A model generated the notes under the pieces. The model ran no database searches, was not told the DNA's origin, and saw only the letters and a list, made by a program, of their open reading frames with translations. A program made the translations under genes and the position numbers. A stretch of 64,000 bases of DNA from an uncultured Macellibacteroides sp. (GTDB lineage: Bacteria; Bacteroidota; Bacteroidia; Bacteroidales; Tannerellaceae), in assembly GCF_963667135.1 (NCBI RefSeq), contig NZ_OY762974.1:1612001-1676000 (forward strand). Reading direction: 5' to 3'. This document shows, piece after piece, positions 8,110-31,809 of this stretch. Within the stretch, counting starts at the first letter, position 1. The number at the start of each line of letters is the position of its first letter.

Positions 8110-8709
8110 ATGCGTAAATTAGATTCTCCTGACATAATAATGAGTGATTCCGAATTGTTATCCTTACTTCATTATGATCGTGATAAAGCTTTTACTTTGA
8201 TTTATGAAAAGTATCATAAGTTATTGTATGTGCTTGCTTTTAAGTATTTGAAAAGTTCTTTCATGGCAGAAGATGCTGTTCAATTTGTTTTTTTGAAATT
8301 GCTGGAGACTCATTCGTTGCTATCTGTTTCTGTCAATCTGCGTAATTATTTGTATACTATGCTGAAGAATCATTTACTAAATGAAATACGCAACAATTAT
8401 AATGCGGTTGAAAAAAATTATGAAATGGCCCAGTCAGGATCGGAATACGAAGACGATTTGCTCACTAAAATTGAAGATAAGGATATGATGGACCGGTTGT
8501 ATCTGCTTGTTGAACAGTTACCATTGCAAAAGAAATTAATTTGTCTTTACAAGTTAAAAGATAATCTTTCTAATCAGGAGATTGCAGAAAAAATGAACAT
8601 TTCTGTCGCAACTGTAAAAAGCCACTATACGCAGGCAATCAAAATACTTCAATCAAATTTTGAACTAATGTTGATAATAATTTCAATTGTCAACTCAACC
8701 TATTTTTAA
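8110..8709 (+). CDS. ECF-type RNA polymerase sigma factor
   Basis: This 199-residue sigma-70 family protein is of the extracytoplasmic-function type common beside SusC/SusD genes. Region 2 spans about residues 20-95 (FTLIYEKYHKLLYVLAFKYL, then AEDAVQFVFLKL). Region 4 spans about 130-185 with a helix-turn-helix (LSNQEIAEKMNISVATVKSH). It would direct RNA polymerase to the locus promoters when released by the adjacent FecR-type anti-sigma factor. The tail after about residue 185 is unusually hydrophobic (LMLIIISIV). An alternative ATG lies at 8140. Confidence 0.92.
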   Translation: MRKLDSPDIIMSDSELLSLLHYDRDKAFTLIYEKYHKLLYVLAFKYLKSSFMAEDAVQFVFLKLLETHSLLSVSVNLRNYLYTMLKNHLLNEIRNNYNAVEKNYEMAQSGSEYEDDLLTKIEDKDMMDRLYLLVEQLPLQKKLICLYKLKDNLSNQEIAEKMNISVATVKSHYTQAIKILQSNFELMLIIISIVNSTYF

Positions 8710-8753: not shown

Positions 8754-9752
8754 ATGATTATGAATATTCCAGATAACGATATAATTGAGAGAACGCTTAA
8801 TAATGAAGCGACACCAGATGAAGCCAAAATGGTTGTTCGCTGGTTTAAAACCAAAGAAGGCCAGTTGTGGCTTTCATCCAGAATTGATGAGGATGAAAAA
8901 TTAATTTTGGAAGGAGAAGAGCATTTTCAGGTTAATCATAAGATTCCATCGGATGTTATTTACAGTAACATCTTAAAACGATTGAAGACACAAAAGTTAA
9001 GGAGAAGAATTTTTCAGGCAGCTGCTTTACTGATACCTTTTATTTTGGTGGCGGCATCGTTCTTTTATGTTAATTCGAAGGTGGATTTATTGGCAGTTAA
9101 CGAATATGATGAGATTTATGTGCCAAAGGGTGAACGTATGCAGGTTATATTTCAGGATGGCAGTAAAGTTTATCTGAACTCTGAGAGTAGAATAAGATAT
9201 CCTCGTAAGTTCGGGTTGAATGAACGAAAAGTGGAATTGGAGGGTGAGGGATGGTTTGATATTGCAAAAAATCCAAATAGACCCTTTATAGTTGATCTGA
9301 ACTGCTTACGGGTTAAGGTTATGGGAACAATTTTCGATGTAAAAGCTTATCCGAATGAAAATGATATTTCTGTGGTATTGGAGAGTGGATCAGTTGAACT
9401 TAAAACTGTAATGTCAAATTCAATTAATATGGTTCCCGGAGATAAAGCCGTTTATAACAGATCGTCAGGTCGTTGCAAAATATTGCATTCTGACAATTAT
9501 AAATTGTCGTCTGCATGGAAGCATAATGTTTTAGTATTTAATAATTCTTCTTTGTCTGATGTGATTAAAACTTTATCAAGAACCTATAATGTAAATTTTA
9601 TAGTTGAAGATTCTGTTGCCCTGAGTTATACTTACACGATTACTACAAATAGTAAGAACCTGGCTTTCCTTCTAAAGGAACTGGAGAAGATTACACCTGT
9701 ACGATTTATTATAAACGAGAACGATATTAGAGTAAAAATGATAAAAAAATAG
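8754..9752 (+). CDS. FecR-type anti-sigma factor
   Basis: This 332-residue inner-membrane protein has a cytoplasmic N-terminal segment that would hold the ECF sigma factor. One transmembrane helix follows at about residues 86-105 (IFQAAALLIPFILVAASFF). A periplasmic FecR domain comes next at about 115-220 (IYVPKGERMQVIFQDGSKVYL, then EGEGWFDIAKN), and a DUF4974-like C-terminal domain at about 255-325. In the FecIR/SusC scheme the C-terminal domain receives a signal from the STN domain of the transporter, which is present in the next gene. A second in-frame ATG lies two codons in (8760). Confidence 0.92.
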   Translation: MIMNIPDNDIIERTLNNEATPDEAKMVVRWFKTKEGQLWLSSRIDEDEKLILEGEEHFQVNHKIPSDVIYSNILKRLKTQKLRRRIFQAAALLIPFILVAASFFYVNSKVDLLAVNEYDEIYVPKGERMQVIFQDGSKVYLNSESRIRYPRKFGLNERKVELEGEGWFDIAKNPNRPFIVDLNCLRVKVMGTIFDVKAYPNENDISVVLESGSVELKTVMSNSINMVPGDKAVYNRSSGRCKILHSDNYKLSSAWKHNVLVFNNSSLSDVIKTLSRTYNVNFIVEDSVALSYTYTITTNSKNLAFLLKELEKITPVRFIINENDIRVKMIKK

Positions 9753-9946: not shown

Positions 9947-12900
9947 ATGAAAGAAAAACAAATTTGCCCTATTTCCAGGCATATTTTATTATTTATGGAG
10001 AAAATACCTAATGCCATGAAGTCAACCTTCTTATCTTTAGTTTTTTCTTTTCTTAGCGTTACCCTGAATGCAGCTAATCAACATGTATCCATAACTCTGG
10101 AAAACGTGAAAGTCGAGACGATTTTAACAACCATTTCTAAACAAACCGGTCTCTCAATGGCCTATAGTAAACAGATTGTTGATCTCAACCGAATTGTAAG
10201 CATCAATCTTAAAGATGTAGAGGTGGAGAAAGTCCTAGATAAATTGGTGGAAGGAACTTCCCTGGCATATGAAGTGAAAAGTGGGAAAGTCTATTTATTT
10301 GAAAGACGCTCTAACAAAACAAGTTATTCAGAACAACAGCAAAAAAAAGTAACTGGTACCGTAAAGGATGTACAGGGACAGCCCATTATTGGGGCCAATG
10401 TCGTTGAGAAAGGAACATCAAATGGGACAGTAACGGATTATAATGGTAATTTTTCGCTAGAGGTTTCTGAAGAGTCGGTTCTCCTATTTTCTTACATCGG
10501 ATATATTTCTCAGGAATATATTGTTGGTAAAAACACATTGCTTAATGTGAAATTGGCGGAAGATGCCAAAACACTCGAAGAAGTTGTTGTTGTGGGGTAT
10601 GGTACCCAGAAAAAAGGAGAGGTTGCGAGTGCTATTTCAAGTATAAAATCGGAGAATTTTATCAAAGTTCCTTCTCCGGATGCTGCTCAGTTAATCAGAG
10701 GTCAGGTGGCTGGTTTGAGTATTATTTCCAAGGATGCGAATCCTACATCAACTTCCGAAATCTCATTACGAGGTATTACAACGTTAAAATCGAGCGCAAG
10801 TCCTTTGGTGCTGGTTGATGGTATCCCAGCTGATCTGAATTCTGTTTCTCCTGATGACATTCAACAGATTGATGTTTTGAAGGACGGATCTGCAGCTGCT
10901 ATCTATGGAACCCGTGGAACGAATGGTGTAATTTTGATTACTACCAAAAATGCAAAAGGAGAAATGCCTACAAAGGTTGATTTTAATGCTTACTTGTCTA
11001 CTCAGCAGATCACAAAGAGACTGGATTTTATGAATACTAAACAATATAGGGCGAAAGTGGCCGAGGGTATTCCAGGTGCGCAGGATGACGGTGATAATGT
11101 AAACTGGTTAGATGAGGTTATGAGAACTCCTTTTACGCAGGTTTATAATTTAAGTCTAAAAGGGGGAAGCAAGTCTACCAATTATACAGCAAGCTTTGAA
11201 TATAGAGGATTGAATGGATTGATAAAACGTACAAATAATCAAATGATTTATCCTCGTATAGAAATTTCGCACCGTATGTTAGATGACAAGTTGAAACTGA
11301 CTGCCAGTCTGAGCGGATACAAGCAAAGTTACTTTTCCGGTTCTGATGGAGGAAGTTACAATTCGGCTATTTATAGAAATGCTTTAACATTCAATCCAAC
11401 AACGCCACTTAAGGATGCGAACGGAAGTTGGTCTGAAAGTCCTTCTAAAACAGATTATTTTAATCCGGTTGCTTTGCTGGAAGAAGTTGAAGGAGAAAAT
11501 CAAGCAACAAGTCTAAGAATGTTTGCAACGGCTATTTTTACTCCGATAAAAGGATTGGATATTAAATACCTTGTTTCTTCCAATACATATAATCAGGCGA
11601 GAGGATATTACGAAACCCAACAGCATATTTCCACTATAAAAGATGATAAGAATGGATATGCTTCCAGAGGTACTACCCGAAATACAGAAGATCTGACAGA
11701 GCTTACTGTTCAGTGGAACAAAATCTTGTTTGAAGATCACACTTTCACCCTCCTTGGAGGCTATAGTTGGTTTAAAAGGAATTACCAAAACTACTATATG
11801 CAGAACTTTGATTTCCCATCGGACGATTATACTTATAACAACATAGGTTCAGGTTCTGCATTAACAAAAGGGCGAGGAACGGAATATTCTTACCAAAGTG
11901 AAAATAAGTTGTTAGGCTATTTCGGGCGTTTTAATTATAGCTTCCGAGGTAAATACATGTTATCTGCTAGTATTCGTCATGAAGGGTCTTCCAAGTTTGG
12001 AGCGAATCAGAAGTGGGGTACTTTTCCGGCTGTCTCTGCTGCCTGGAATATCAAATCGGAGGAGTTTCTTAAGAATATCAACAAGTTAAGCAGTTTAAAA
12101 TTGCGTGCCGGTTTTGGTGTAACTGGAACGGAACCTTCAGATCCATATATGTCTCTTAATACATTGAGCTTCTCTACATATGTTTATTATAACGGAGCGT
12201 GGATTAAAACTGTTCGCCCTGCTTCCAATTCGAATCCAGATTTGAGGTGGGAGCGTAAGGAAGAGACAAACATTGGTCTTGACTTTGGTTTTATGGATGA
12301 TCGCATCACGGCTACTGTAGATTTATATAATCGTAAAACGAAAGATTTGTTATGGGATTATACAGTTCCTTCGCCTCCTTATTTGTATTCGAGTATGACA
12401 GCTAATGCCGGTTCTATGCGAAATCGGGGAATTGAGGCTTCTGTAACAGTAATTCCTGTTAAGACTGAGAACATACAGTGGATTACTTCTGTAAATTATT
12501 CGACGAACAGTAATAAGCTTCTTTCTTTATCAAATGACAAGTTTGTATCCAGCGGTTATTCGGACCAGGGAAATACTGGTGAACCGATTCAGCAGACTAC
12601 CCATCGTATCCAGGAAGGTGAATCAATTGGCAATTTCTATGGATTCAAGAGTATAGATATTGATGAAAATGGTCACTGGATTATCGAAGGTGAAGACGGA
12701 ACAGCAAAGCCTATCTCTCAACAACAGCCTACTGACAAAAAAGTGATTGGAAATGGATTGCCTAAACATTATCTGAACTGGAACAACACAGTGATGTATA
12801 AGAATATCGATTTTACGTTAACTATGCGTGGAGCATTTAAATTTGATATTTTGAACATGGCGGAATTGCAATACGGGCAACCTGTTATGCTTTCGAGAGG

Positions 12901-13225
12901 AAATATTCTTAACAGTGCTTTTGATAAAGTGTATGGTAAAGTAAGATTGGCAAATGATCAGGAACTTCAATATGTGAGTTATTATATTGAAAAAGGGGAT
13001 TATTGGAAAATTGATAACATGACTTTAGGTTATACGCTTGACTTCAAAACATCATGGATTGACAAACTAAGAGTGTATGGAACCGTTTCCAATTTGGCTA
13101 CGTTTACTGGTTATACCGGTATCGATCCGGAAGTTAGTATCAGTGGTCTGAATCCTGGTTGTGACGATAAAAATCGTTATCCGGCAGCAAGAACATTTAC
13201 CGTTGGATTATCCGTTAATTTTTAA
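9947..13225 (+). CDS. SusC/RagA family TonB-dependent transporter with STN domain
   Basis: This 1092-residue outer-membrane glycan importer has an N-terminal signal segment (about 26-42). An STN signalling domain follows at about 47-118 (ISLENV-type repeats, here ITLENVKVETILTTISKQTG). A carboxypeptidase-regulatory domain sits at about 136-210 (VTGTVKDVQGQPIIGANV). The TonB box-like EEVVVVGYGTQKKGEV follows, then the plug (LVLVDGIPADLNSVSPDDI) and a 22-strand-type barrel ending in FTVGLSVNF. The STN domain implies it signals to the upstream FecR protein. Start choice is uncertain: ATGs at 9947, 9995 and 10016 all precede the signal sequence. The SusD partner begins 12 bp downstream. Confidence 0.95.
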   Translation: MKEKQICPISRHILLFMEKIPNAMKSTFLSLVFSFLSVTLNAANQHVSITLENVKVETILTTISKQTGLSMAYSKQIVDLNRIVSINLKDVEVEKVLDKLVEGTSLAYEVKSGKVYLFERRSNKTSYSEQQQKKVTGTVKDVQGQPIIGANVVEKGTSNGTVTDYNGNFSLEVSEESVLLFSYIGYISQEYIVGKNTLLNVKLAEDAKTLEEVVVVGYGTQKKGEVASAISSIKSENFIKVPSPDAAQLIRGQVAGLSIISKDANPTSTSEISLRGITTLKSSASPLVLVDGIPADLNSVSPDDIQQIDVLKDGSAAAIYGTRGTNGVILITTKNAKGEMPTKVDFNAYLSTQQITKRLDFMNTKQYRAKVAEGIPGAQDDGDNVNWLDEVMRTPFTQVYNLSLKGGSKSTNYTASFEYRGLNGLIKRTNNQMIYPRIEISHRMLDDKLKLTASLSGYKQSYFSGSDGGSYNSAIYRNALTFNPTTPLKDANGSWSESPSKTDYFNPVALLEEVEGENQATSLRMFATAIFTPIKGLDIKYLVSSNTYNQARGYYETQQHISTIKDDKNGYASRGTTRNTEDLTELTVQWNKILFEDHTFTLLGGYSWFKRNYQNYYMQNFDFPSDDYTYNNIGSGSALTKGRGTEYSYQSENKLLGYFGRFNYSFRGKYMLSASIRHEGSSKFGANQKWGTFPAVSAAWNIKSEEFLKNINKLSSLKLRAGFGVTGTEPSDPYMSLNTLSFSTYVYYNGAWIKTVRPASNSNPDLRWERKEETNIGLDFGFMDDRITATVDLYNRKTKDLLWDYTVPSPPYLYSSMTANAGSMRNRGIEASVTVIPVKTENIQWITSVNYSTNSNKLLSLSNDKFVSSGYSDQGNTGEPIQQTTHRIQEGESIGNFYGFKSIDIDENGHWIIEGEDGTAKPISQQQPTDKKVIGNGLPKHYLNWNNTVMYKNIDFTLTMRGAFKFDILNMAELQYGQPVMLSRGNILNSAFDKVYGKVRLANDQELQYVSYYIEKGDYWKIDNMTLGYTLDFKTSWIDKLRVYGTVSNLATFTGYTGIDPEVSISGLNPGCDDKNRYPAARTFTVGLSVNF

Positions 13226-13236
13226 AATAGAAACAT

Positions 13237-14853
13237 ATGAAAACATATATAAAACTATTTATCGCGTTGCTTTTCGCTAGCACAACCATTTCTTGCAGTG
13301 ATAATTTAGATGAGAATGTATATTCGTCGGTTACAGAGCAAAGTTATAAATATACGTCAGCCGATTTTGATCCAGCTGTTTCCAGTGTTTACTCTTATCT
13401 TAGATCACTTATTTCTCATGGAGGTTACTGGCAGGCGCAAGAGGTGACTGCTGATGGAATTGTGATGCCTCCTAACGCATCAGGATGGGATGATGGAGGA
13501 ATTTACCGCAGAATGCATTATCATACGTGGAATTCTGAACAAGCGCATATTTCATCTATGTGGTCAGCTTTTTATAGAGGAGTTATTTTGTCGAATCAAG
13601 TAATAGAGCAGATTGAAACAGATAAAATTCCGGCTCTCTCGGCAAATGATAAGACTGCAGGTCTTGCCGAACTAAGGGCTGCAAGAGCATTCTATTATTG
13701 GTTGATTTGTGATAATTTCGGGGATGCACCTCTGGTGACTGCTACTGGTACGGATTTGCCAGAAAAAAGCACAAGAAAGCAAATTTATGATTTTATTGTA
13801 AGTGAACTGAATGAAGTAATACCTTCGCTTAGTGAAGTTCAGGGCGGCACATCGTATGGACGGATGAATAAATGGGCTGCCAAAGCACTTTTGGCAAATG
13901 TATATCTGAATGCGGAAGTATATGTAGGTGAACCCCATTGGGCTGATTGTATTATTCAATGTAATGATATTATAAACAGTACCAAGTGCGATCTTTCTGC
14001 TAATTACAGTGATCCATTCCGGACAGTGGGAGTGGAGACTTCGAAAGAAATTATATTTACGATTCCATTTGATGAAAAATTAGCTGGAGGAAATAGTATT
14101 CACATGTTTTCATGGCATGGTGAACTTAAAAAGAAATATGAAACTGAAGCGACTCCTTGGGGAAGTGGTTCGGCTATGGGAGTCACTCAATTTATAGACA
14201 CCTATGATACGGAAGACTCACGTCTTGCAGATACATGGCTAATGGGGCCCCAATATGCAGCTAATGGAACATTGTTGTTAGGAACTTATGATATGAAAGG
14301 AGAGCCTCTGAATTTTACAAAGGATATACCAAGTGGCAACTATACGAAGGAGGCTGAAGGCTACCGAATGAATAAATACGAGATTGTAAAAGGGGCTCAG
14401 GGTTCATCTAGTACTGATGTTCCATTGTTCCGCTACTCTGAGGTGTTACTAATGAAAGCGGAATGCCTTTTGAGGACTGGTGCCCCTGGCGCCGGAGAGT
14501 TGGTTACGCAAGTGAGAAGGCGGGCGTTTAAGGATAATCCAGACAAAGCCGTTGTTACTGATGCGCAGCTGTTGGAAAACAGTTCATACCAATACGGATA
14601 TGTGGAGGACTATAAGATTGTTGATAAAGGAAACACTGATCCAATTTTGTATGGCAGGATGTTGGACGAGCTAGGTTGGGAGTTTGCTTGGGAAATGCAC
14701 AGACGAAGAGATATGATTCGTTTTGGTGTATATACGAAAAAAAGTTGGTTGTCTCATAAACCACAGGGAGAGTATCGTAAACTATTCCCGATTCCTGAAA
14801 GTGTAATTACGTCAAATCCAATGCTGACACAGAATCCTGATTATTCCAATTGA
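13237..14853 (+). CDS. SusD/RagB family nutrient-binding lipoprotein
   Basis: This 538-residue surface lipoprotein has a lipobox TTISC (Cys20) and the helical TPR-like SusD fold. Signatures include LAELRAARAFYYWLICDNFGDAPLV and the C-terminal FPIPESVITSNPMLTQNPDY. It forms the lid over the SusC barrel and captures the glycan. SusD sequences are poor predictors of substrate; the neighbouring GH127-like genes suggest an arabinofuranose-containing glycan. Confidence 0.95.
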   Translation: MKTYIKLFIALLFASTTISCSDNLDENVYSSVTEQSYKYTSADFDPAVSSVYSYLRSLISHGGYWQAQEVTADGIVMPPNASGWDDGGIYRRMHYHTWNSEQAHISSMWSAFYRGVILSNQVIEQIETDKIPALSANDKTAGLAELRAARAFYYWLICDNFGDAPLVTATGTDLPEKSTRKQIYDFIVSELNEVIPSLSEVQGGTSYGRMNKWAAKALLANVYLNAEVYVGEPHWADCIIQCNDIINSTKCDLSANYSDPFRTVGVETSKEIIFTIPFDEKLAGGNSIHMFSWHGELKKKYETEATPWGSGSAMGVTQFIDTYDTEDSRLADTWLMGPQYAANGTLLLGTYDMKGEPLNFTKDIPSGNYTKEAEGYRMNKYEIVKGAQGSSSTDVPLFRYSEVLLMKAECLLRTGAPGAGELVTQVRRRAFKDNPDKAVVTDAQLLENSSYQYGYVEDYKIVDKGNTDPILYGRMLDELGWEFAWEMHRRRDMIRFGVYTKKSWLSHKPQGEYRKLFPIPESVITSNPMLTQNPDYSN

Positions 14854-15047: not shown

Positions 15048-16646
15048 ATGAACTTTATGAAAAAAATCTGGATACATAAAATATTGGCCTTTATGCTACC
15101 ATTCTTTTTATTGGGAATGGCTGAGCTTGTTTTGCGTGTGTGTAAGATTGGCTATAATACGCAATTGTTTATACCGGCTGCAGATGAGCGGTTCTATGTT
15201 ATGAATCCAGATGTCTCTGCTAAGTATTTTACCATTGGAGAGAATGCAACGATTGGTAATCAAGATCTATTTTTCAAAAAGAAGCCTTCGGGAACATTAC
15301 GTTTTTTTGTATTGGGAGCTTCTTCTTCTCTCGGTTTTCCTTATATGTATAACGGTTGTTTTGCCCGTATGCTTAAGTATCGATTACAATTTACTTATCC
15401 TCATACAAACATAGAGATTGTTAATTTGTCTCTAACGGCGATTAATAGTTATACATTATATGATTTTTCCAGACAATTGATCGATTATGAACCTGACGGA
15501 GTGTTGGTGTACGCTGGTCAGAATGAGTTTTATGGCGCATTGGGTGTTGCCTCGTCCAGTAAATTTGCCCGCAATGTTTATGTGACACGTCTTATTCTGG
15601 CTGCTAAAGAGTTTAGATTAATTCAGTTACTTAATATAATCGTTAATAAATTACACGGAACACGAGGTGAGTTGATAAATAAGGATCATACGTTGATGGA
15701 AAGGATGGCTGACCGTAAAATGGTTCCATATAATTCACAACTATATGAAGATGGGATAGTGCAGTATAGAACGAATATGGAGGATATGATTTCATTATTT
15801 AGTCAACATCGGATTCCTGTTTTTATAGGAACATTGGTTAGTAATATGAAAGATCAGGAACCTTTTGCTCACTCCGATTCTGATTCGTTGAACGCATGGA
15901 AAGAATATACATTGGGCGATTCATTGTTCGTGATAAAAAATTACCAAAAAGCTAAAGTGCATTTTGAGATGGCAAAAGAGTATGACAAGCTTAGGTTTCG
16001 TGCGCCAAGCGTATTTAATGGTATTATTCAATGGCTAGCACATAAATATCCCAATGTTTATGTTGTCGATGTTGAGAAGGCATTTAAAAAGAAATCTGTA
16101 GGTGGTATTATCGGCAATGAATTGCTTTTGGAGCATGTGCATCCCAACCTTGCCGGACATCGGATAATGGCGGATAATTATTTTGAAATCATTAAAGATA
16201 ATTATTTGGACAAACAAAGTGTGGAAGAGAAGGGCTTCGATTTGAAGGAGGAAGATTATCCTTATACGGCTTTTGATACTATTTGTGGTGATATTTCAAT
16301 CAGGCAATTAAAACAACAATGGCCTTTTAATGAAACTCCACAAGTAATTAAAACTGATACGAATACTATTGAATATAAAATGGCGCAAAAATATAAAAGA
16401 AGAGAAATTAACTGGGGCCAGGCTATGCAACGGTTGAATAATAAATACATTCAAAGAGAAGATTACAAGAACGCTTTGAGAGTAATTGAACAGATGTGCC
16501 TTGATGTTCCATATGAAATAATGTTTGTAAGTCAGGCTGCTCGCTTGTCTGGCTTATTAGATTTGCAGGAGAAAGCGCGTTTTTATTCTAATAAAGAAAT
16601 AGAATTGATGCAACTACTAGATACACCCACTTATAATGGTAAATAA
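15048..16646 (+). CDS. Membrane-anchored SGNH/GDSL-like hydrolase
   Basis: This 532-residue protein has one N-terminal transmembrane or signal-anchor helix at about residues 12-30 (ILAFMLPFFLLGMAELVL). An SGNH-type domain follows: block I is VLGASSSLGFP (Ser nucleophile context), block III is YAGQNEFYG, and the C-terminal catalytic His is in EHVHPNLAGH, where the usual Asp of DxxH is Glu. The last 120 residues are helical and may carry TPR-like helices. Such proteins add or remove ester groups on envelope glycans. Here it precedes SxtJ-like, SxtK-like and carbamoyltransferase genes, so it may act on the same glycan or metabolite (inference). Confidence 0.8.
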   Translation: MNFMKKIWIHKILAFMLPFFLLGMAELVLRVCKIGYNTQLFIPAADERFYVMNPDVSAKYFTIGENATIGNQDLFFKKKPSGTLRFFVLGASSSLGFPYMYNGCFARMLKYRLQFTYPHTNIEIVNLSLTAINSYTLYDFSRQLIDYEPDGVLVYAGQNEFYGALGVASSSKFARNVYVTRLILAAKEFRLIQLLNIIVNKLHGTRGELINKDHTLMERMADRKMVPYNSQLYEDGIVQYRTNMEDMISLFSQHRIPVFIGTLVSNMKDQEPFAHSDSDSLNAWKEYTLGDSLFVIKNYQKAKVHFEMAKEYDKLRFRAPSVFNGIIQWLAHKYPNVYVVDVEKAFKKKSVGGIIGNELLLEHVHPNLAGHRIMADNYFEIIKDNYLDKQSVEEKGFDLKEEDYPYTAFDTICGDISIRQLKQQWPFNETPQVIKTDTNTIEYKMAQKYKRREINWGQAMQRLNNKYIQREDYKNALRVIEQMCLDVPYEIMFVSQAARLSGLLDLQEKARFYSNKEIELMQLLDTPTYNGK

Positions 16647-17004
16647 AGATATTAACAGAGAGGTGGGAATTATTTTGTCTGTTTTGACTTTAGTTCTAAA
16701 CGAATATTGGCAAATATGTTGGAAAGAAATACTTTTCGTAATTCTAATTCTTTCTTTATTGGTTCCAGTAGTTTTTTCTCCTATTAGCAGGTTATTATTA
16801 TTCGTTGGAGAATTTATGGGCAAGTGGGTGACTGTTGTGCTTCTTTTTATTACTTTTTTCTTAGTTGTAACACCCCTGGCCTTTATTCGCCGTTACGTAT
16901 CTAAAGACAGTTTGTTGATTCGTGAGTTTAAGAATGGATCCGAAAGTGTTTTTCTTAAAATGGAGAGAACTGCTGATTCTAAAGATTTGAAGAAACAATA
17001 TTAA
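16636..17004 (+). CDS. SxtJ-like membrane protein
   Basis: This 122-residue protein has about three hydrophobic segments (about residues 8-20, 31-58 and 63-85) and a charged C-terminus. Length, helix pattern and position before a DUF5989-like gene and a NodU/CmcH carbamoyltransferase match SxtJ family membrane proteins, first noted in cyanobacterial saxitoxin clusters, whose function is unknown. It overlaps the SGNH gene end by 11 bp. A membrane partner or anchor for the carbamoyltransferase is a reasonable inference. Confidence 0.7.
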   Translation: MVNKDINREVGIILSVLTLVLNEYWQICWKEILFVILILSLLVPVVFSPISRLLLFVGEFMGKWVTVVLLFITFFLVVTPLAFIRRYVSKDSLLIREFKNGSESVFLKMERTADSKDLKKQY

Positions 17005-17015
17005 TAATAAAAGAT

Positions 17016-17168
17016 ATGATGGATTTTATTAAAGAATTTTTCAGTTTTGTAGTGGAACGGAAAAAATATTGGATTATACCTTTGATAATTATATTATTAT
17101 TGCTTTCTGTTGTGATAACACTTTCTCAAGGTACTGCTTTGGCGCCTTTTATCTATTCAATCTTTTAG
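17016..17168 (+). CDS. DUF5989/SxtK-like 50-residue membrane protein
   Basis: This small gene runs from ATG at 17016 (or the adjacent ATG at 17019) to TAG at 17166-17168. The product starts MDFIKEFFSFVVERKKYW, continues as one hydrophobic helix (about residues 19-36), and ends SQGTALAPFIYSIF. That layout (FIKEFxxF, then ERKKxWxxP, then a helix, then the QGSALAPFIY-type end) is the one I recall for DUF5989 proteins, which sit next to SxtJ and carbamoyltransferase genes. It lies 11 bp after the SxtJ-like gene and 4 bp before the carbamoyltransferase. It is easily missed by length cut-offs. Function unknown. Confidence 0.8.
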   Translation: MMDFIKEFFSFVVERKKYWIIPLIIILLLLSVVITLSQGTALAPFIYSIF

Positions 17169-17172
17169 TAGT

Positions 17173-18966
17173 ATGACTGTTATTCTGGGAATATCGGCTT
17201 TTTATCATGATAGTGCTGCTGCACTTGTTATTGATGGGGAGATTATCGCAGCAGCGCAGGAAGAGCGTTTTACAAGGTGTAAGAATGACGCTTCTTTTCC
17301 AACCCATGCTATAAGTTATGTTCTTCGTGAAGCAGGCTTAACAGGCGAAAACGTTGACTATGTGGCGTTTTATGAAAAGTCGTTTCTTAAGTTCGAACGC
17401 ATACTTGAAACTTACTATGCATTTGCTCCCAAAGGCATTGTTAGTTTTGTAAAATCAATTCCTTTATGGATGAAAGAAAAACTATTTGTAAAGCAGCATA
17501 TAATAAGTGAATTAAAGGCAATGGATATTAAATCTTTGGTTTTATTCCCTGAACATCACTTATCACATGCAGCAAGCGCTTTTTACCCTTCACCTTATGA
17601 GGATGCTTGTATTTTAACAGTTGATGGAGTAGGAGAATGGGCAACCACTACCATTGGAAAAGGTAAAGGTAATAAAATTACATGTTTGAGAGAAATTCAT
17701 TTTCCTCATTCATTAGGCTTATTTTATTCGGCATTTACCTACTACTGTGGTTTTAAAGTTAATGGAGGGGAATACAAATTGATGGGGCTTGCTCCTTATG
17801 GGCAATATTCTCAACAAGCAATGGATTACATTCGGTTAATTAAAGAACATCTTATTGATATTCGTTTGGATGGCTCTTTTTTGCTTAATATGAATTATTA
17901 TAATTATGCGACAGGATTAACTATGACGAATGATAAATTGTGGAAAAAAATTTTCAATGTTCCTCCTCGCAAACCGGAAAGTGATATCTCACAACCATAT
18001 ATAGATCTTGCTTTTGCTGCACAGTTCGTTATCGAGGAAGTGATGTTAAAGTTAGCCCATACAGCTAAAGAGCTTACAAATTCGGATACGCTTGTAATGG
18101 CTGGGGGGGTAGCTTTAAATTGTGTTTCCAACGAAAAACTTTATAACAGCCGTCTTTTTAAACATATTTGGGTCCAGCCTGCATCTGGTGATGCGGGTGG
18201 TGCTGTAGGAGCGGCTTTGGCTATCTGGCATACTTTTTTGAATAATAAACGAATTGTAAACAAGAAAGATGGAATGAGCAATACTTATTTGGGTCCTTCA
18301 TTCTCTCAAAGATGTGTTGATATTTTGATTCGTAATAAGGATGCTCATGCTGAATTGCTTTCCGAAACTGATTTACTTCAGAAAGTATCTGTTCTTTTAA
18401 GAGACGGCGCCATTGTGGGATGGTTTCAGGGTCGGATGGAGTTCGGCCCGCGATCTTTGGGAAACAGATCTATCCTTGCTGATCCAAGAGCTGAGGGGAT
18501 GCAGAAAAGATTAAATTTAAAAATCAAGTTTAGAGAAAGTTTCAGACCTTTTGCCCCATGTATTCTGGAAGAAGATGTGTCTAACTATTTTGAGAGAACA
18601 GGGCCATCGCCATACATGTTGTTTACAACAGGTCTTCTACCAGAATTAAGAAAACAATTGCCTGAAAACTACAAACAGCTTACTTATTCAAATAAGCTTT
18701 ACGCTGCACGTTCTGCTCTGCAGGCTGTAACACATGTGGATTTCTCTGCCAGGATTCAAACAGTATCAAGAGAAAATAATTCTTTATTGTACGACTTGCT
18801 GAGAGCTTTCAAAACAGAAACTGGTTGCGGCATATTAGTCAATACGAGTTTTAATGTGAGAGGGGAACCAATTGTTTGTAATCCTGAAGATGCCTATAGT
18901 TGTTTTTGCAATACTGGAATGGATTATCTTGTTATTGGAAATTATCTGTTTTCAAAAAACAAATAG
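17173..18966 (+). CDS. NodU/CmcH/SxtI-type O-carbamoyltransferase
   Basis: This 597-residue enzyme uses carbamoyl phosphate and ATP to make a carbamoyl-adenylate and transfers the carbamoyl group to a hydroxyl. The N-terminal Kae1-like part starts ILGISAFYHDSAAALV (His12-Asp13). The metal-site His pair is His128 and His132 in EHHLSHAASAF, and a further ligand is Asp340 in ASGDAGGAVGAAL. The C-terminal domain has WFQGRMEFGPRSLGNRSIL and NTSFNVRGEPIV. All expected catalytic motifs are intact. The acceptor is unknown; neighbours suggest an envelope glycan or imported sugar. Finding it inside a SusCD locus is unusual. Confidence 0.93.
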   Translation: MTVILGISAFYHDSAAALVIDGEIIAAAQEERFTRCKNDASFPTHAISYVLREAGLTGENVDYVAFYEKSFLKFERILETYYAFAPKGIVSFVKSIPLWMKEKLFVKQHIISELKAMDIKSLVLFPEHHLSHAASAFYPSPYEDACILTVDGVGEWATTTIGKGKGNKITCLREIHFPHSLGLFYSAFTYYCGFKVNGGEYKLMGLAPYGQYSQQAMDYIRLIKEHLIDIRLDGSFLLNMNYYNYATGLTMTNDKLWKKIFNVPPRKPESDISQPYIDLAFAAQFVIEEVMLKLAHTAKELTNSDTLVMAGGVALNCVSNEKLYNSRLFKHIWVQPASGDAGGAVGAALAIWHTFLNNKRIVNKKDGMSNTYLGPSFSQRCVDILIRNKDAHAELLSETDLLQKVSVLLRDGAIVGWFQGRMEFGPRSLGNRSILADPRAEGMQKRLNLKIKFRESFRPFAPCILEEDVSNYFERTGPSPYMLFTTGLLPELRKQLPENYKQLTYSNKLYAARSALQAVTHVDFSARIQTVSRENNSLLYDLLRAFKTETGCGILVNTSFNVRGEPIVCNPEDAYSCFCNTGMDYLVIGNYLFSKNK

Positions 18967-19017: not shown

Positions 19018-20871
19018 ATGAAACAGTTTGTATTAGTGTCGTTAGCTAGTTTAGCTTTGTTAACATGTCAGAAACTGGAGGGAGAAACGCCTCTTAAAAT
19101 GGTTGAACAGGTAGATTTCTCTCATGTTCATATTCAGGATAAATTCTGGTCTCCACGATTAGAAAAACATATCACGGCTACCTTGCCGGTTTGTATAGAT
19201 CAAATAGAGAATCAAACTGGTCGCATGCAGAATTTTGTGAATGCAGCCAAACAATCAGGAAAACATTCGGGAATATTTTTTGATGATTCAGATGTGTATA
19301 AAGCACTGGAGGGAATGGCTTATGCATTGATAAATCACCCAGATGCCAATCTTGAAAAAAAGGCGGATGAGTGGATTGCTAAAATTGCCTCCGCTCAGCA
19401 ACCCGACGGGTATATAAATACGTACTATACGCTAACCGGACTTGATAAGCGGTGGACAAATATGGACAAGCATGAGATGTATTGTGCTGGTCATATGATT
19501 GAGGCGGCAGTTGCTTATTATAGAGCTACTGGTAAGCGGACGCTATTAGATGTAAGTATTCGTATGGCGGATCATATGATGAATGTTTTTGGTCCGGATA
19601 AACGTCATTGGGTACCAGGACATGAAGAGATTGAATTGGCTTTGGTGAAATTATTCCAGGTAACCAAAGATAAAAGATACCTGAATTTCTCAAACTGGTT
19701 GTTGGAAGAAAGAGGACATGGTCATGGATCAAAAGGAGATGAGGGTAAATGGGAACCTATCTATTATCAGGATGAGAAACCAATTCGTGAAATGACAGAT
19801 ATTGCAGGTCATGCTGTTCGTTGTATGTATTTGTATTGTGGTATGGCAGATGTCGCTGCTTATAAAAATGAAACAAGCTATATTGTTGCCATGAATCGTT
19901 TATGGGATGATGTAGTGTTGCGGAATATGTATATTACAGGAGGAATAGGTTCTTCAAAGCATAATGAAGGTTTTACCGAAGATTATGATTTGCCTAACAA
20001 AGATGCTTATTGTGAAACTTGTGCGTCGGTAGGTATGGTATATTGGAATCAGCGCATGAATCAGTTTACGGGTAATTCAAAGTACGTTGACGTTTTGGAG
20101 CGTTCGATGTATAATGGGGCTCTGGCAGGTATTTCCTTGTCTGGCGACAGATTTTTCTATGTGAATCCGTTGGAGGCTGATGGCTCTCACCACCGCAAGG
20201 CGTGGTATGGCTGCGCTTGTTGTCCAAGTCAAATTTCCCGGTTCCTTCCTTCAATTGGCAATTATATTTATGGAACTTCTAAAGAGGCTGTCTGGGTTAA
20301 TCTTTATATTGGTAATAGAACTGAAATTCCAATGGATAATGGTACTCTTCTTGTTGAACAGGAAACTAATTATCCTTGGGATGGTAATGTTAAATTAAAG
20401 ATTACCTCTCCCAAAGGGTTGGATAAAGAATTCCGTTTGCGAATTCCGGGATGGTGCAAAAAATATTCTATTAAAGTGAATGATGAAAAATTTAATGCGC
20501 CGGTTGAGAATGGGTATGCCGTTATTAACAATAAATGGAAAACAGGTGATGTAATTGTTTTTAAAATGGACATGGATATTCAAGTGGTTGCTGCGGACGA
20601 AAGAGTGAAAGAAAATGTAGGGAAACGTGCCATCCAAAGGGGACCTATTGTTTACTGTTTGGAAGAAGCCGACAATAAAGACAGCTTTGACAGGGTGGCT
20701 ATTTCTCCGAAAACTACCTTTAAAAGTAAGTTTGAGTCCAATTTTCTTGATGGTGTTACCTCAATTGAGGCTGCCAATAAAGATCAAAAGTTTCTGTTGA
20801 TTCCTTACTATGCATGGGACAACAGAGAGGCTGGGAAGATGAAGGTATGGATTGATTATAAAACGAATTAA
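19018..20871 (+). CDS. GH127 family beta-L-arabinofuranosidase, lipoprotein
   Basis: This 617-residue enzyme matches the GH127/DUF1680 family, which removes beta-L-arabinofuranose using a zinc-bound Cys nucleophile. The expected zinc site is present: Glu333 and Cys335 (CETCASVGM), and Cys401-Cys402 (GCACCPSQISR), with Cys401 aligned to the nucleophile. Other family marks are FDDSDVYKALEGMAY and QPDGYINTYYT. The N-terminus looks like a lipoprotein signal with LLTC (Cys17), so it is probably membrane-anchored. It lies 51 bp after the carbamoyltransferase, probably in the same operon. Specificity within the family (GH127 or a sister family) is not certain. Confidence 0.9.
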   Translation: MKQFVLVSLASLALLTCQKLEGETPLKMVEQVDFSHVHIQDKFWSPRLEKHITATLPVCIDQIENQTGRMQNFVNAAKQSGKHSGIFFDDSDVYKALEGMAYALINHPDANLEKKADEWIAKIASAQQPDGYINTYYTLTGLDKRWTNMDKHEMYCAGHMIEAAVAYYRATGKRTLLDVSIRMADHMMNVFGPDKRHWVPGHEEIELALVKLFQVTKDKRYLNFSNWLLEERGHGHGSKGDEGKWEPIYYQDEKPIREMTDIAGHAVRCMYLYCGMADVAAYKNETSYIVAMNRLWDDVVLRNMYITGGIGSSKHNEGFTEDYDLPNKDAYCETCASVGMVYWNQRMNQFTGNSKYVDVLERSMYNGALAGISLSGDRFFYVNPLEADGSHHRKAWYGCACCPSQISRFLPSIGNYIYGTSKEAVWVNLYIGNRTEIPMDNGTLLVEQETNYPWDGNVKLKITSPKGLDKEFRLRIPGWCKKYSIKVNDEKFNAPVENGYAVINNKWKTGDVIVFKMDMDIQVVAADERVKENVGKRAIQRGPIVYCLEEADNKDSFDRVAISPKTTFKSKFESNFLDGVTSIEAANKDQKFLLIPYYAWDNREAGKMKVWIDYKTN

Positions 20872-20886
20872 TATTAGTAGGTTGAC

Positions 20887-22929
20887 ATGAAAAAAATACT
20901 ATTACTTATTTTTTCTGTTTTAATCGTTTTTCCTGCAATTAGCGCTTCGGAAAAAGATAAAGGTGATAATCGCATTAATTATCTTAATAACCGGTATCCA
21001 TTGATAAGAAAACCTTATGTTAAGCTACCTTTGGGTTCGATTAAACCAAAAGGTTGGATGCTGGAACAACTCAAGCTTATGCAAGAGGGAATGACTGGTA
21101 ATCTGGATAAGGTTTATGAAATGGTTATGGGTAAAAGAAACGGATGGTTAGGAGGAGATGGTGATGTTTGGGAACGGGGGCCTTATTGGATTGACGGATT
21201 ATTGCCCTTGGCATATATTCTTAACGACCAAGCATTAAAGGATAAAGTAAAACCTTGGATTGAGTGGTGCCTGGCTTCTCAAAAAGAGAACGGTTACTTT
21301 GGTCCTGATACTGACAGAGCCAATGAACCAGGTCTTCAAAGGAATAATGCGCATGATTGGTGGCCTAAAATGGTTATGCTTAAAGTGATGCAGCAGTATT
21401 ATTCGGCTACCGGAGATGCACGTGTAATTGGTTTTTTAACAAAATATTTTAAATATCAGCTGGAACAATTACCTGTAAATCCGTTGGATAAATGGACTTT
21501 CTGGGGTGCTCAGCGTGGCGGAGATAATTTGATGATTGTGTATTGGTTGTATAATATTACTGGGGACAAATTTTTACTTGATCTGGGGGAACTTATCCAT
21601 AAACAGACATTTAACTGGACGGATGTCTTTTTGCATCAAGATCATTTGTCGCGCCAGCTCAGCATGCATTGCGTGAATCTTGCTCAAGGTTTTAAGGAAC
21701 CCGTGATTTATTATCAACAGAATAAAAATACGGAACAAATCGCCGCGGTTAAAAAGGCTGTCCGAGATATGCGCCATACGATTGGGTTACCAACTGGTCT
21801 ATGGGGTGGAGATGAGCTGCTCAGATTTGGAAATCCTACGTTAGGTTCCGAATTATGTACTGCTGTGGAAATGATGTTTTCTTTAGAGGAAATGCTGGAA
21901 ATAACAGGTGATATTCAGTGGGCTGATTATTTGGAACGGATAGCTTATAATGTGCTTCCTACTCAGGTAACGGATGATTATTCCTCGCGTCAGTATTTTC
22001 AGCAAGTAAATCAGGTTTCTGTAACAAGAGACTGGAGGGATTTTGTTACACCTCATGATGATACTGATTTGCTGTTTGGTAAATTGACTGGGTATCCTTG
22101 TTGCACGTCGAATTTGCATCAGGGATGGCCTAAACTGGTGCAAAATTTGTGGTATGCCACAGATGATAATGGTGTTGCCGCATTAGTTTATGCACCTTCT
22201 GAGGTGACAATAAAGGTTTCAAATGGAGTGCAAGTGTGTGTTAAAGAAGATACGGGGTATCCTTTTGAGGAAAGAGTGCGTTTTCAGTTTGAATTTGTTG
22301 ATATGAAAATTAAAAAATCATTCTTCCCATTCCATTTCCGTATTCCTGCATGGTGTACCAGTCCGGTAGTTTCCTTAAATGGACAGGTTATTCCTGTTGA
22401 TGTTTATTCCGGCGAAATCGCAAGGATTAACAGAGAATGGGTTAATGGCGATGTACTGAGTGTTGAGCTTCCGATGCATGTCGATGTTAGTTACTGGTTC
22501 GATGGTGCGGCTGTAATTGAGCGAGGTCCTTTGCTCTATTCTTTAAAAATGGAAGAAAAATGGGTAAAGAAACCAGTTGAAAAGAATTCGGATAATAAAT
22601 ATGGGAATTGGTATTATGAAGTTACATCCAATTCTCCGTGGAACTATTCGTTGCTTAGTAATTCGCTGAAGAAGGATAGTATTGGACAGAATTTTGTTGT
22701 AGAAAAAAAGTCAACTATAGCTTCTTATCCTTGGAATACAGAGAATGCACCCATTACTATCCGAACCAAAGGACGACGAATTCCTGGATGGCAGTTATAT
22801 AGAGGGTCGACAGGTTCAATTCCGTTTTTTACCCAACAAGGGAAGGATTATTTAGAGAATGAAGAGGAGGTTGAGCTTATTCCTTATGGTTGTACAACCC
22901 TTCGTATTACTGAGTTCCCTATCCGGTAG
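20887..22929 (+). CDS. Second beta-L-arabinofuranosidase-domain (GH127-like) protein
   Basis: This 680-residue secreted protein has a cleavable-type signal peptide (about residues 1-20). An all-helical (alpha/alpha)6 barrel follows, then a beta domain containing FRIPAWC and IERGPLLYSLKME. The Cys/zinc pattern of the GH127 group is kept in altered form: Glu322-x-Cys324 (GSELCTAVEMMFS) and Cys405-Cys406 (YPCCTSNLHQGWPK). It is clearly diverged from the preceding enzyme, so substrate may differ. It starts 15 bp after the first enzyme and ends just before a strong terminator, as the last gene of the locus. Confidence 0.85.
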   Translation: MKKILLLIFSVLIVFPAISASEKDKGDNRINYLNNRYPLIRKPYVKLPLGSIKPKGWMLEQLKLMQEGMTGNLDKVYEMVMGKRNGWLGGDGDVWERGPYWIDGLLPLAYILNDQALKDKVKPWIEWCLASQKENGYFGPDTDRANEPGLQRNNAHDWWPKMVMLKVMQQYYSATGDARVIGFLTKYFKYQLEQLPVNPLDKWTFWGAQRGGDNLMIVYWLYNITGDKFLLDLGELIHKQTFNWTDVFLHQDHLSRQLSMHCVNLAQGFKEPVIYYQQNKNTEQIAAVKKAVRDMRHTIGLPTGLWGGDELLRFGNPTLGSELCTAVEMMFSLEEMLEITGDIQWADYLERIAYNVLPTQVTDDYSSRQYFQQVNQVSVTRDWRDFVTPHDDTDLLFGKLTGYPCCTSNLHQGWPKLVQNLWYATDDNGVAALVYAPSEVTIKVSNGVQVCVKEDTGYPFEERVRFQFEFVDMKIKKSFFPFHFRIPAWCTSPVVSLNGQVIPVDVYSGEIARINREWVNGDVLSVELPMHVDVSYWFDGAAVIERGPLLYSLKMEEKWVKKPVEKNSDNKYGNWYYEVTSNSPWNYSLLSNSLKKDSIGQNFVVEKKSTIASYPWNTENAPITIRTKGRRIPGWQLYRGSTGSIPFFTQQGKDYLENEEEVELIPYGCTTLRITEFPIR

Positions 22930-30708: not shown

Positions 30709-31809
30709 TTAGTTCCATCCGGTAATGGTTCGGATAAAAGGAGTAAGTTCGCCGGCTCCTTTGTATTGCTGAGCCTTGGATGGATGCCAGCAGGCACCGT
30801 ATCCCAGACTTCCGTCGGTTGGCGTTAAATCAAAGCGGTATACCTGCTTATCTCCGGCTGCTTTTGCTTCTTCGGCCACCCGGTTAAGGGCTGCTTGTAC
30901 ATCAGCAAGCGGTTTTCCATTCAGCATACATCCGCTTAAGAGAATTATTTTTGCTTTTGGATAGTATCCACGCAGTGTTTTAAGAAAAGAACGGTAGCCT
31001 TGTTCCAGCAATTGGGTATCGTAGGGCTGGGTACTCACATCGTTTGTTCCCAGATTCACACAAACAACATCAGGTGTATAACGGTTAAAATCCCATACTT
31101 CGGTCGAATCCGTAAATAGTGTTTGGGTATACATGGCAGGCATGCAGTCAGGATTTCCTGCTTTAGGACCGTTATAATTTCTGTAGATGCCAATTCCCGA
31201 ACGGGCTACGACCAGACTTTGCGCATGTAGCGCCCGGGCTGTTGCAGCGGCATAGGTATAATAATGGTTTTCGGTTTCATCTTTAAATGGAGCATTTGGA
31301 TCTGTTACTTCCGTTCCAAAGCCGCAAGTGATGGAATTGCCGATGAATTCGATCTTTCTTTGCGGAAGAACCGGGGCTTCCGGTAGTGTTTTGCCCGGAT
31401 CTAATATAAAGCCACGGAATTCGGGGCGGCGTTGGTAGCCTTCATAAGCGAGACTTATGGTTACATCGTGAAGGGCGTCGGTTAAATTGTCTGCCAGTAA
31501 AACAACCGAATCGTTTTCAAGTGATGCTACCTTAAAGGGTTCTTGCTTATCAATTTCTACCATAAAATAACCACTGTTCGGCTTTACGCGCATAGAAAGT
31601 GAAGTCCCTACAAAACGGGCCCTTATTTGTACGCCGGGGTAGGTAAAGCGGGGAGATTCGGGATTTGTAAAACTAACCCGGCCAATATAGGAAATATTGG
31701 GGTGGCTTGCGGGGATAACGACTGGCTCTGATGAGCTTTGGGCATGGCTTGTTGCAAATAACAGCAGGCCAAAAATGAACAAAAAGACTTGAAAACGGTT
31801 CTTTTTCAT
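30709..31809 (-). CDS. CE2-like SGNH carbohydrate esterase, exported
   Basis: This 366-residue protein has a signal peptide (about residues 1-23, ending SHAQ). A beta-sandwich N-terminal domain (about 30-145) is followed by an SGNH hydrolase domain with nucleophile block FIGNSITCGFGTE, block III NLGTNDVS, and a catalytic His in CWHPSKAQQ. This two-domain layout is that of CE2 acetyl-esterases, which deacetylate xylan, mannan or related glycans. No Asp/Glu precedes the His at the usual DxxH place, a recognised feature of CE2 dyad enzymes. It is divergent from dusB. Confidence 0.88.
   Translation of the reverse strand: MKKNRFQVFLFIFGLLLFATSHAQSSSEPVVIPASHPNISYIGRVSFTNPESPRFTYPGVQIRARFVGTSLSMRVKPNSGYFMVEIDKQEPFKVASLENDSVVLLADNLTDALHDVTISLAYEGYQRRPEFRGFILDPGKTLPEAPVLPQRKIEFIGNSITCGFGTEVTDPNAPFKDETENHYYTYAAATARALHAQSLVVARSGIGIYRNYNGPKAGNPDCMPAMYTQTLFTDSTEVWDFNRYTPDVVCVNLGTNDVSTQPYDTQLLEQGYRSFLKTLRGYYPKAKIILLSGCMLNGKPLADVQAALNRVAEEAKAAGDKQVYRFDLTPTDGSLGYGACWHPSKAQQYKGAGELTPFIRTITGWN

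Follow-up and report, generated by a model that had tools for sequence, protein, structure and literature searches.

A candidate transmembrane carbamoyl relay encoded within a SusCD locus of an uncultured Macellibacteroides sp.

The shuttle-tyrosine model of acyl transfer reportedly goes back to the D-alanine work of Schultz in 2023. According to the excerpts from which all papers are cited here, the F-X-Y-X-X-F C-terminus of DltX and of membrane-bound O-acyltransferases (MBOATs) such as PatA is an acyl shuttle, whose tyrosine is first acylated and then donates the group to an SGNH transferase (PMC12148441). The tail reads FIYANF in PatA of N. gonorrhoeae (NgPatA; PMC12148441) and FLYFGF in DltX (PMC11035591); the transferase PatB has been assayed with the peptide acetyl-FIYANF (PMC12148441). 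Saxitoxin clusters contain the O-carbamoyltransferase gene sxtI (1839 bp), the short genes sxtJ (405 bp) and sxtK (165 bp), and the GDSL lipase gene sxtL (PMC2679770, PMC2684587), and decarbamoylation has been proposed for SxtL (PMC2679770). Here we analyse a block of four genes in 64,000 nucleotides from an uncultured Macellibacteroides sp. (Bacteroidales, Tannerellaceae; assembly GCF_963667135.1, contig NZ_OY762974.1, positions 1,612,001 to 1,676,000 of the forward strand; this whole stretch is called the window). The block encodes a membrane-anchored SGNH protein, an SxtJ-family membrane protein, a DUF5989 microprotein and a carbamoyltransferase. The reading to which we lean, with somewhat better than even confidence, is that the four products form a transmembrane carbamoyl relay decorating an extracytoplasmic glycan. 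The pieces are known and the gene set has a precedent; their combination in a relay and the proposed mechanism would be new.

A first-pass annotation had placed four consecutive genes here, between SusD and two GH127-type enzymes, and this was confirmed. The open reading frames (ORFs) lie exactly as given (Table 1), with an 11-bp overlap between the SGNH gene and that of the 122-aa protein, then 11 bp, then 4 bp before the carbamoyltransferase gene. Profiles identified SusC, SusD, both GH127-type proteins, the 50-residue DUF5989 protein (PF19451) and a complete carbamoyltransferase (PF02543 and PF16861). The accompanying statement that no system with this content had been described has to be given up, as the excerpted annotation of sxtI-J-K-L lists a carbamoyltransferase, two small proteins and a GDSL lipase. 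Missed altogether was a shuttle motif at the C-terminus of the DUF5989 protein, which points to a mechanism.

The PF19451 profile matches the DUF5989 protein of the window over its full 49 positions (78.7 bits against a cut-off of 27), and the protein ends in PFIYSIF. This tail was compared in 133 DUF5989 proteins, which derive from 60 loci of the same phylum and from 73 named loci of many phyla among the matches listed. All 133 carry a C-terminal Tyr-x-x-Phe, with tyrosine at position −4 and phenylalanine at −1, and 129 have the strict F-x-Y-x-x-F end. As background, 4 of 15463 other ORFs of the same loci end in F.Y..F, the two longest of the four being MBOATs, and shuffled sequences gave such an end in 10 of 26600 shuffles. 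The sole MBOAT found in the same genome terminates in PFIYFQF, and the 30 best-scoring MBOATs of the own family, this one included, all end in PFIYF[QRI]F. Net charge before the transmembrane (TM) helix exceeds that after it in 129 of the 133 DUF5989 proteins; this bias agrees with the proposed N-in/C-out course of the microprotein, with the N-terminus in the cytosol and the C-terminus outside. Three loci (L102, L089 and L081, around 10000) have DUF5989 alone, with neither an SxtJ-like protein nor a carbamoyltransferase in the stretch taken; the gene next to DUF5989 in L102 begins like a ParA ATPase, and a similar gene lies about 3 kb off in L081.

From the observed gene content, linkage, co-distribution, invariant motif, conserved residues and predicted membrane segments we derive the following proposal. 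Carbamoyl phosphate would be activated by the cytosolic carbamoyltransferase, which, together with the SxtJ-family protein, would load the carbamoyl group onto Tyr47 of the DUF5989 protein, within its FIYSIF tail on the outer side of the inner membrane; carbamoyltransferase and SxtJ-family protein would take the place of the MBOAT on the donor side. The tail would then hand the group to Ser92 of the anchored SGNH protein, which would attach it to a hydroxyl group on an extracytoplasmic glycan. The Dlt and PatAB systems are the model for the use of a tyrosine as carrier, for the sequence of steps and for the topology. We infer the carbamoyl-tyrosine, the acceptor and the passage through the membrane, and the last two are the least secure parts of the relay. 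In its widest form the proposal makes DUF5989 a carbamoyl-tyrosine carrier and adds the set of carbamoyltransferase, SxtJ, DUF5989 and SGNH protein to MBOAT-SGNH and AT3-SGNH as a third, widespread means of bringing a small activated group through the inner membrane onto envelope glycans; the set would be coupled to SusCD in this lineage, and saxitoxin I-J-K-L would be a recruited copy. To this we give an even chance. Alternatively, a sugar or lipid-linked precursor might be carbamoylated in the cytosol, with SxtJ and DUF5989 providing only membrane docking and the SGNH protein acting as a periplasmic esterase on a glycan imported by SusCD. We regard this cytosolic scheme as unlikely, and it leaves the invariant YxxF end of DUF5989 unexplained.

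The SGNH assignment of the window protein stands on family conservation. Its own match to PF13472 (GDSL_2) reaches 23.5 bits, under the Pfam gathering score of 32.9, so that the membrane-anchored SGNH hydrolase of the first-pass annotation is confirmed in its anchor and conserved residues and falls short in its profile score. GDSL_2 matches at E ≤ 0.001 in all 24 aligned SGNH relatives, the window protein included, and a TM segment is found by hydropathy at the N-terminus of each. Identity to the window protein is 34-53% in the seven own-family relatives measured. G90, S92, N126, A131, G157, N159, E160 and H365 are invariant in the 24 proteins, and position 362 is Glu or Asp throughout (Glu in the window protein). 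From the SGNH block pattern we propose Ser92, Asn159, Glu362 and His365 as the catalytic residues. The invariant Ala131 aligns with the block II Gly of an acetyl xylan esterase, and excerpts on PatB describe loss of this Gly for that transferase (PMC12148441). This bears on a further alternative, in which the SGNH protein is a decarbamoylase and DUF5989 only a docking peptide. Such carbamoyl removal has the published SxtL proposal (PMC2679770) on its side, and it seems to us improbable: besides the conserved alanine, adding and removing a carbamate within one operon would be futile unless the two activities were separated. Searching the PDB with the full-length SGNH protein was uninformative, as TPR matches swamped the search. 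The SGNH profile of the named loci aligned with CgnD of the crocagin cluster (PDB 8a2n) over one long stretch (E 3.3e-11); excerpts on that cluster report that it also encodes a carbamoyltransferase, CgnI, and that CgnD turnover is slow (PMC10070186).

The carbamoyltransferase carries PF02543 and PF16861 over its full length and matched 12 PDB sequences, its relatives there being 7xb6, novobiocin-type enzymes, GdmN and TobZ. TobZ and GdmN are small-molecule carbamoyltransferases, and their place among the closest solved relatives speaks for cytosolic carbamoylation. At an E threshold of 1e-79, chosen after inspection and with values read by eye, the carbamoyltransferase scored better in 128 of 129 carbamoyltransferase genomes with DUF5989 versus 5 of 24 without it (153 genomes). 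Because scores split in this way, the DUF5989-associated carbamoyltransferases are suggested to be a distinct subfamily. The SxtJ label drawn from the first-pass annotation holds for the family and fails for the window protein itself. PF19588 (SxtJ) matches 27 of 30 aligned relatives of the 122-aa protein in the same gene position, whereas the window protein gave no match in the Pfam scans and its own genome none at E ≤ 10; an NCBIfam scan of 50 SxtJ-like proteins also gave none. Identity of the 122-aa protein to own-family relatives is 29-36%, except in L053 (20%) and L055 (22%).

Co-occurrence was counted in 395 genomes of the same phylum, with DUF5989 counted over its cut-off and kinship ignored. 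The SGNH type was present in 115 genomes and DUF5989 in 132, with both in 113, a confinement of the SGNH type to DUF5989 genomes that the cytosolic scheme leaves unexplained. SxtJ occurred in 115 genomes, all of which have DUF5989; the carbamoyltransferase occurred in 153, including 129 of the 132 with DUF5989. At genus level, 72 of 73 SGNH-bearing genera also include a DUF5989 genome. The Fisher p for SGNH and DUF5989 is 1e-75, which is no true probability since the genomes are related. Co-occurrence of the four proteins is strong and not due to chance, with statistics that ignore kinship, and the earlier view that the four genes belong together is borne out. Among the exceptions, one genome (G226) has the SGNH protein and a 58-residue carbamoyltransferase match (contig 1, 287832-288002) and no DUF5989, possibly a decayed system, and another with 13% contamination (G390) has SGNH protein and carbamoyltransferase and no DUF5989. 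In G310 and G332 DUF5989 and SGNH were present with no carbamoyltransferase found, and the DUF5989 match of G047 has an internal stop and is accompanied by neither SGNH protein nor carbamoyltransferase. Occurrence within the own family is sporadic: DUF5989 is absent from the compared genomes of the same species and the same genus. All 11 own-family genomes with full-length DUF5989 also have the SGNH protein and carbamoyltransferase. Among these 11, the set is split over different contigs in G427, G405 and G486, and the SGNH and carbamoyltransferase frames are broken in G446. Of the other own-family genomes, G484 has the SGNH protein alone and G514 only a 26-residue DUF5989 match.

Gene neighbourhoods agree with this picture. 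The 60 loci of the phylum (stretches of up to 20 kb) contained a carbamoyltransferase in 44 cases, an SxtJ-like protein in 46 and an SGNH protein in 27. A scan with own-family carbamoyltransferases yielded at least 80 named loci, a sample from many phyla. Among those listed, DUF5989 was found in 73 and an SxtJ-like protein in 76 of 80 carbamoyltransferase loci. Where the trio shares one strand (67 loci), the order is SxtJ-DUF5989-carbamoyltransferase in 35, carbamoyltransferase-DUF5989-SxtJ in 17 and carbamoyltransferase-SxtJ-DUF5989 in 15, and both intergenic gaps are below 400 bp in 56. SGNH proteins of the named loci were counted by domain-only and iterated searches, replacing a first count (12) that TPR false positives had inflated; the iterated profile gave 56 hits in 47 of 80 loci, some TPR false positives among them. 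For alignment we kept one protein per locus and dropped second hits, TPR-type proteins, fragments that were short or split between frames, and hits at a distance of several kb; two true SGNH members 4-5 kb off, L114 and L120, are also outside this alignment. The 40 aligned SGNH-type proteins, one in each of 40 of the 80 loci, all lie within 1.5 kb of the carbamoyltransferase; 38 of them are within 300 bp of a trio member, and 39 of the 40 loci also have DUF5989. The block I GxS is invariant in the 40 proteins, one His is conserved in at least 90%, and an N-terminal TM segment is predicted in 39. Pfam assigns 28 to GDSL_2 and 8 to AlgX, an alginate acetyltransferase domain, and these AlgX matches beside the trio in other lineages are again unexplained by cytosolic carbamoylation. 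In L075, which was grouped in the same phylum, the SGNH protein is nearly identical to that of the Balneola record L114.

We also surveyed 104 proteins around the trio in 29 hand-picked named loci. By Pfam, GDSL_2 was the commonest family, with 8 members; glycosyltransferase and methyltransferase families came next with 4 each, ahead of sugar-nucleotide enzymes with 3. The first-pass annotation had wavered between a decorating role and one in sugar uptake itself; these flanks make decoration the better general reading, and for uptake itself we found nothing in support. Because neighbours in other lineages build glycans, an envelope glycan is the favoured acceptor of the relay, at odds of roughly two to one over the imported glycan. 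An imported glycan draws its appeal from the SusCD linkage: in this rather unlikely variant, the same relay would carbamoylate a SusCD-imported glycan in the periplasm and so mark or trap it before GH127 attack. Some of the trio neighbours in the named loci, being glycan-building genes, speak against it, as does the want of a nearby SusCD pair in most fetched relatives, described below.

SusD was detected with a profile built in this analysis, which divergent SusD proteins may escape. A same-strand SusD within 6 kb of DUF5989 was present in 8 of 10 own-family loci, in none of the 50 other loci of the phylum (6.9 kb off in L063 and 8.4 kb in L066), and in 1 of 73 listed named loci. The last is Draconibacterium sp. 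L112, with the layout sigma factor-FecR-SusC-SusD-SGNH-SxtJ-DUF5989-carbamoyltransferase, where size and position were the sole basis for assigning sigma factor and FecR. In all 12 own-family genomes with the SGNH gene, SusCD is found upstream of it, as the imported-glycan variant would have it. SusC-SusD also remain upstream of the SGNH gene on the same strand in L187 and L188, where that gene is apart from the trio, and in L189, where no trio was found; the first two cases would also suit a cytosolic carbamoylation with a periplasmic esterase. One extra gene separates SusCD and SGNH in L053 and L054; in L187 SusD and SGNH are separated by a 339-aa ORF (10974-11990, minus strand). A clade with support 99/98 in the SGNH tree unites 11 of the 12 own-family proteins with SusCD-linked L063 of another family, a further point for an imported acceptor; L112 falls outside it, without a settled placement. 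Downstream genes differ between subtypes, which again suits that variant: GH127 genes follow in the window and in L047, L050 and L052; L046 has Kelch repeats and a weak match to GH99; and DUF6057 with a PD40 beta-propeller protein follows in L053 (10378-13634) and L055 (52-3369). Since downstream genes vary while SusCD precedes SGNH in every case, the SusCD-SGNH linkage is steadier than linkage to any one hydrolase family seen. The survey of SusCD and GH127 placement called for by the first-pass annotation thus gave a divided answer: placement beside SusCD is non-random in the own family, and GH127 accompanies only 3 of 10 own-family DUF5989 loci plus the window, so that GH127 was rejected as a core part. 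The SusCD link is real but lineage-specific. Chance insertion of a cassette into a polysaccharide utilisation locus was rejected because the linkage is kept in 12 of 12 own-family genomes with this SGNH protein, at 34-53% SGNH identity to the window in the seven relatives measured. Because the module sits in a SusCD locus behind a pair of extracytoplasmic function (ECF) sigma factor and FecR, it would probably be switched on upon uptake of the SusCD ligand; by analogy with other FecR/ECF systems, this pair and the STN domain of SusC suggest expression when the ligand arrives. General conservation of the pair is unsupported: phmmer searches with the window's proteins, a weak test here, gave a hit for the sigma factor in just one of the 60 loci, which is not of the own family, and no hit for FecR.

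Several points weigh against the relay. Profile comparison of DUF5989 with MBOAT (hhalign) gave E 2.4e-4 in one comparison with a probability of 44%, and E 0.12 minus the last 7 residues. As the similarity is limited to the last 14 residues, the tails may be alike through convergence, or the tail may serve for mere docking; homology of DUF5989 with the C-terminal MBOAT helix is unsupported beyond this stretch. DUF5989 and DltX are likened by the published tail motif alone. When 28 DUF5989 proteins were scanned against Pfam at E ≤ 10, a setting in which HMMER filters drop weak matches, DltX was absent from the matches, and a PDB profile search with DUF5989 gave no good match (best E 0.53). The closest solved SGNH proteins by sequence are mostly esterases and lipases, as a periplasmic esterase in the cytosolic scheme would lead one to expect. 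No MBOAT was among the window proteins scanned around the block, the sole one found in the genome lying at 3.54 Mb, and since the block has no MBOAT or other known acyl conduit, the crossing step is without precedent. No SGNH protein was established within 1.5 kb in the other 40 of 80 listed named loci, 19 of 132 DUF5989 genomes are without this SGNH type, and the co-occurrence counts take no account of phylogeny. Finally, in excerpts of the saxitoxin literature SxtI/J/K are given a small-molecule step and SxtL the removal of carbamoyl (PMC2679770), and SxtJ and SxtK are labelled 'regulatory' (PMC7073992). The MBOAT gene of the genome (L186; contig 1 near 3536180-3536836) is accompanied by another reading frame that looks SGNH-like at its C-terminus, perhaps as an ordinary acylation pair.

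The features of the locus are collected in Table 1. A second, CE2-type SGNH esterase is encoded on the opposite strand about 8 kb past the GH127 genes (30709-31809, minus). Saxitoxin production was discarded as an explanation: the neighbours scanned are SusCD, regulators and GH127 proteins, with no search aimed at other saxitoxin genes.

Table 1. Features of the SusCD locus and the carbamoyl-transfer block (positions in the window)
Feature	Position	Strand	Basis
ECF sigma factor	8110..8709	+	PF04542/PF08281; TIGR02985 121.4 bits vs cut-off 126.4
FecR-type anti-sigma factor	8754..9752	+	PF04773 E 8.1e-15, PF16344
SusC TonB-dependent transporter, N-terminal STN signalling domain	9947..13225	+	TIGR04056 740 bits; PF07660 STN residues 70-117
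SusD-like lipoprotein	13237..14853	+	PF07980 E 2.1e-25
Membrane-anchored SGNH protein, 532 aa, proposed carbamoyl acceptor/transferase	15048..16646	+	weak GDSL match; TM ~ residues 11-29
SxtJ-family membrane protein, 122 aa, two clear TM segments	16636..17004	+	family alignment; hydropathy
DUF5989 microprotein, 50 aa, one TM helix, proposed N-in/C-out	17016..17168	+	PF19451 E 3.4e-22
Codons of terminal FIYSIF hexapeptide; Tyr47 = 17154-17156	17148..17165	+	sequence
Complete NodU/CmcH/TobZ-type carbamoyltransferase, 597 aa	17173..18966	+	PF02543 E 7.7e-89, PF16861 E 1.7e-70
GH127 enzyme	19018..20871	+	PF07944 E 2.6e-110; NF049879 aceric acid hydrolase 446 bits vs cut-off 950
Divergent GH127-type enzyme	20887..22929	+	PF07944 E 4.9e-32

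Neither the relay idea nor DUF5989 by name was found in the literature searched, which lacks most subscription journals; within the same bounds, we found nothing on carbamoyl with MBOAT and SGNH or on a carbamoyltransferase with SusC and SusD. Literature on DltX with carbamoyl is off-topic judging by titles, and, among the papers listed for SxtJ with a carbamoyltransferase or SGNH, those naming SxtJ concern saxitoxin or dinoflagellates. If the relay exists, it would provide a mechanism for DUF5989 and a role for SxtJ, and would explain why, in many bacteria, carbamoyltransferases are accompanied by two tiny membrane proteins and frequently by an SGNH protein as well. A tyrosine-tail relay would then be independent of MBOAT/AT3 proteins and of acyl groups, and carbamoylated surface glycans would be predicted in many bacteria. 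The 'decarbamoylase' label of SxtL would merit re-examination, and glycan uptake and carbamoylation would be coupled in this lineage through the SusCD wiring.

In summary, the quartet shares features with several known systems. With sxtI-J-K-L, compared by its excerpted published annotation only, it has the gene make-up in common; that set, in contrast, serves toxin biosynthesis, no SusCD is reported there in the excerpts, and SxtL is assigned to decarbamoylation. The carbamoyltransferase resembles the NodU/CmcH/TobZ O-carbamoyltransferases in both full-length Pfam domains and in its PDB relatives. The window contains a SusC-SusD pair with glycoside hydrolases and an ECF sigma/FecR pair, like SusCD polysaccharide utilisation loci, and differs from them in the carbamoyl-transfer module inside. 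PatA/PatB and alginate-type MBOAT-SGNH acetylation share the tail, the SGNH transferase and, near the listed trios, the AlgX matches; unlike in PatA/PatB, the tail is on a separate 50-aa protein, the proposed donor is not acetyl-CoA and an MBOAT is lacking. From the MBOAT/DltX-SGNH relay the quartet has the FxYxxF tail with its invariant tyrosine and the membrane-anchored SGNH partner. The Dlt pathway of lipoteichoic acid D-alanylation (DltB-DltX-DltD), as far as the excerpts go, likewise combines a membrane microprotein with an FxYxxF end (at the outer face in Dlt), an SGNH partner and cytosolic activation, whereas here a carbamoyltransferase and an SxtJ protein would replace DltA, DltC and DltB, no MBOAT takes part, and the group handed on would be carbamoyl rather than D-alanine.

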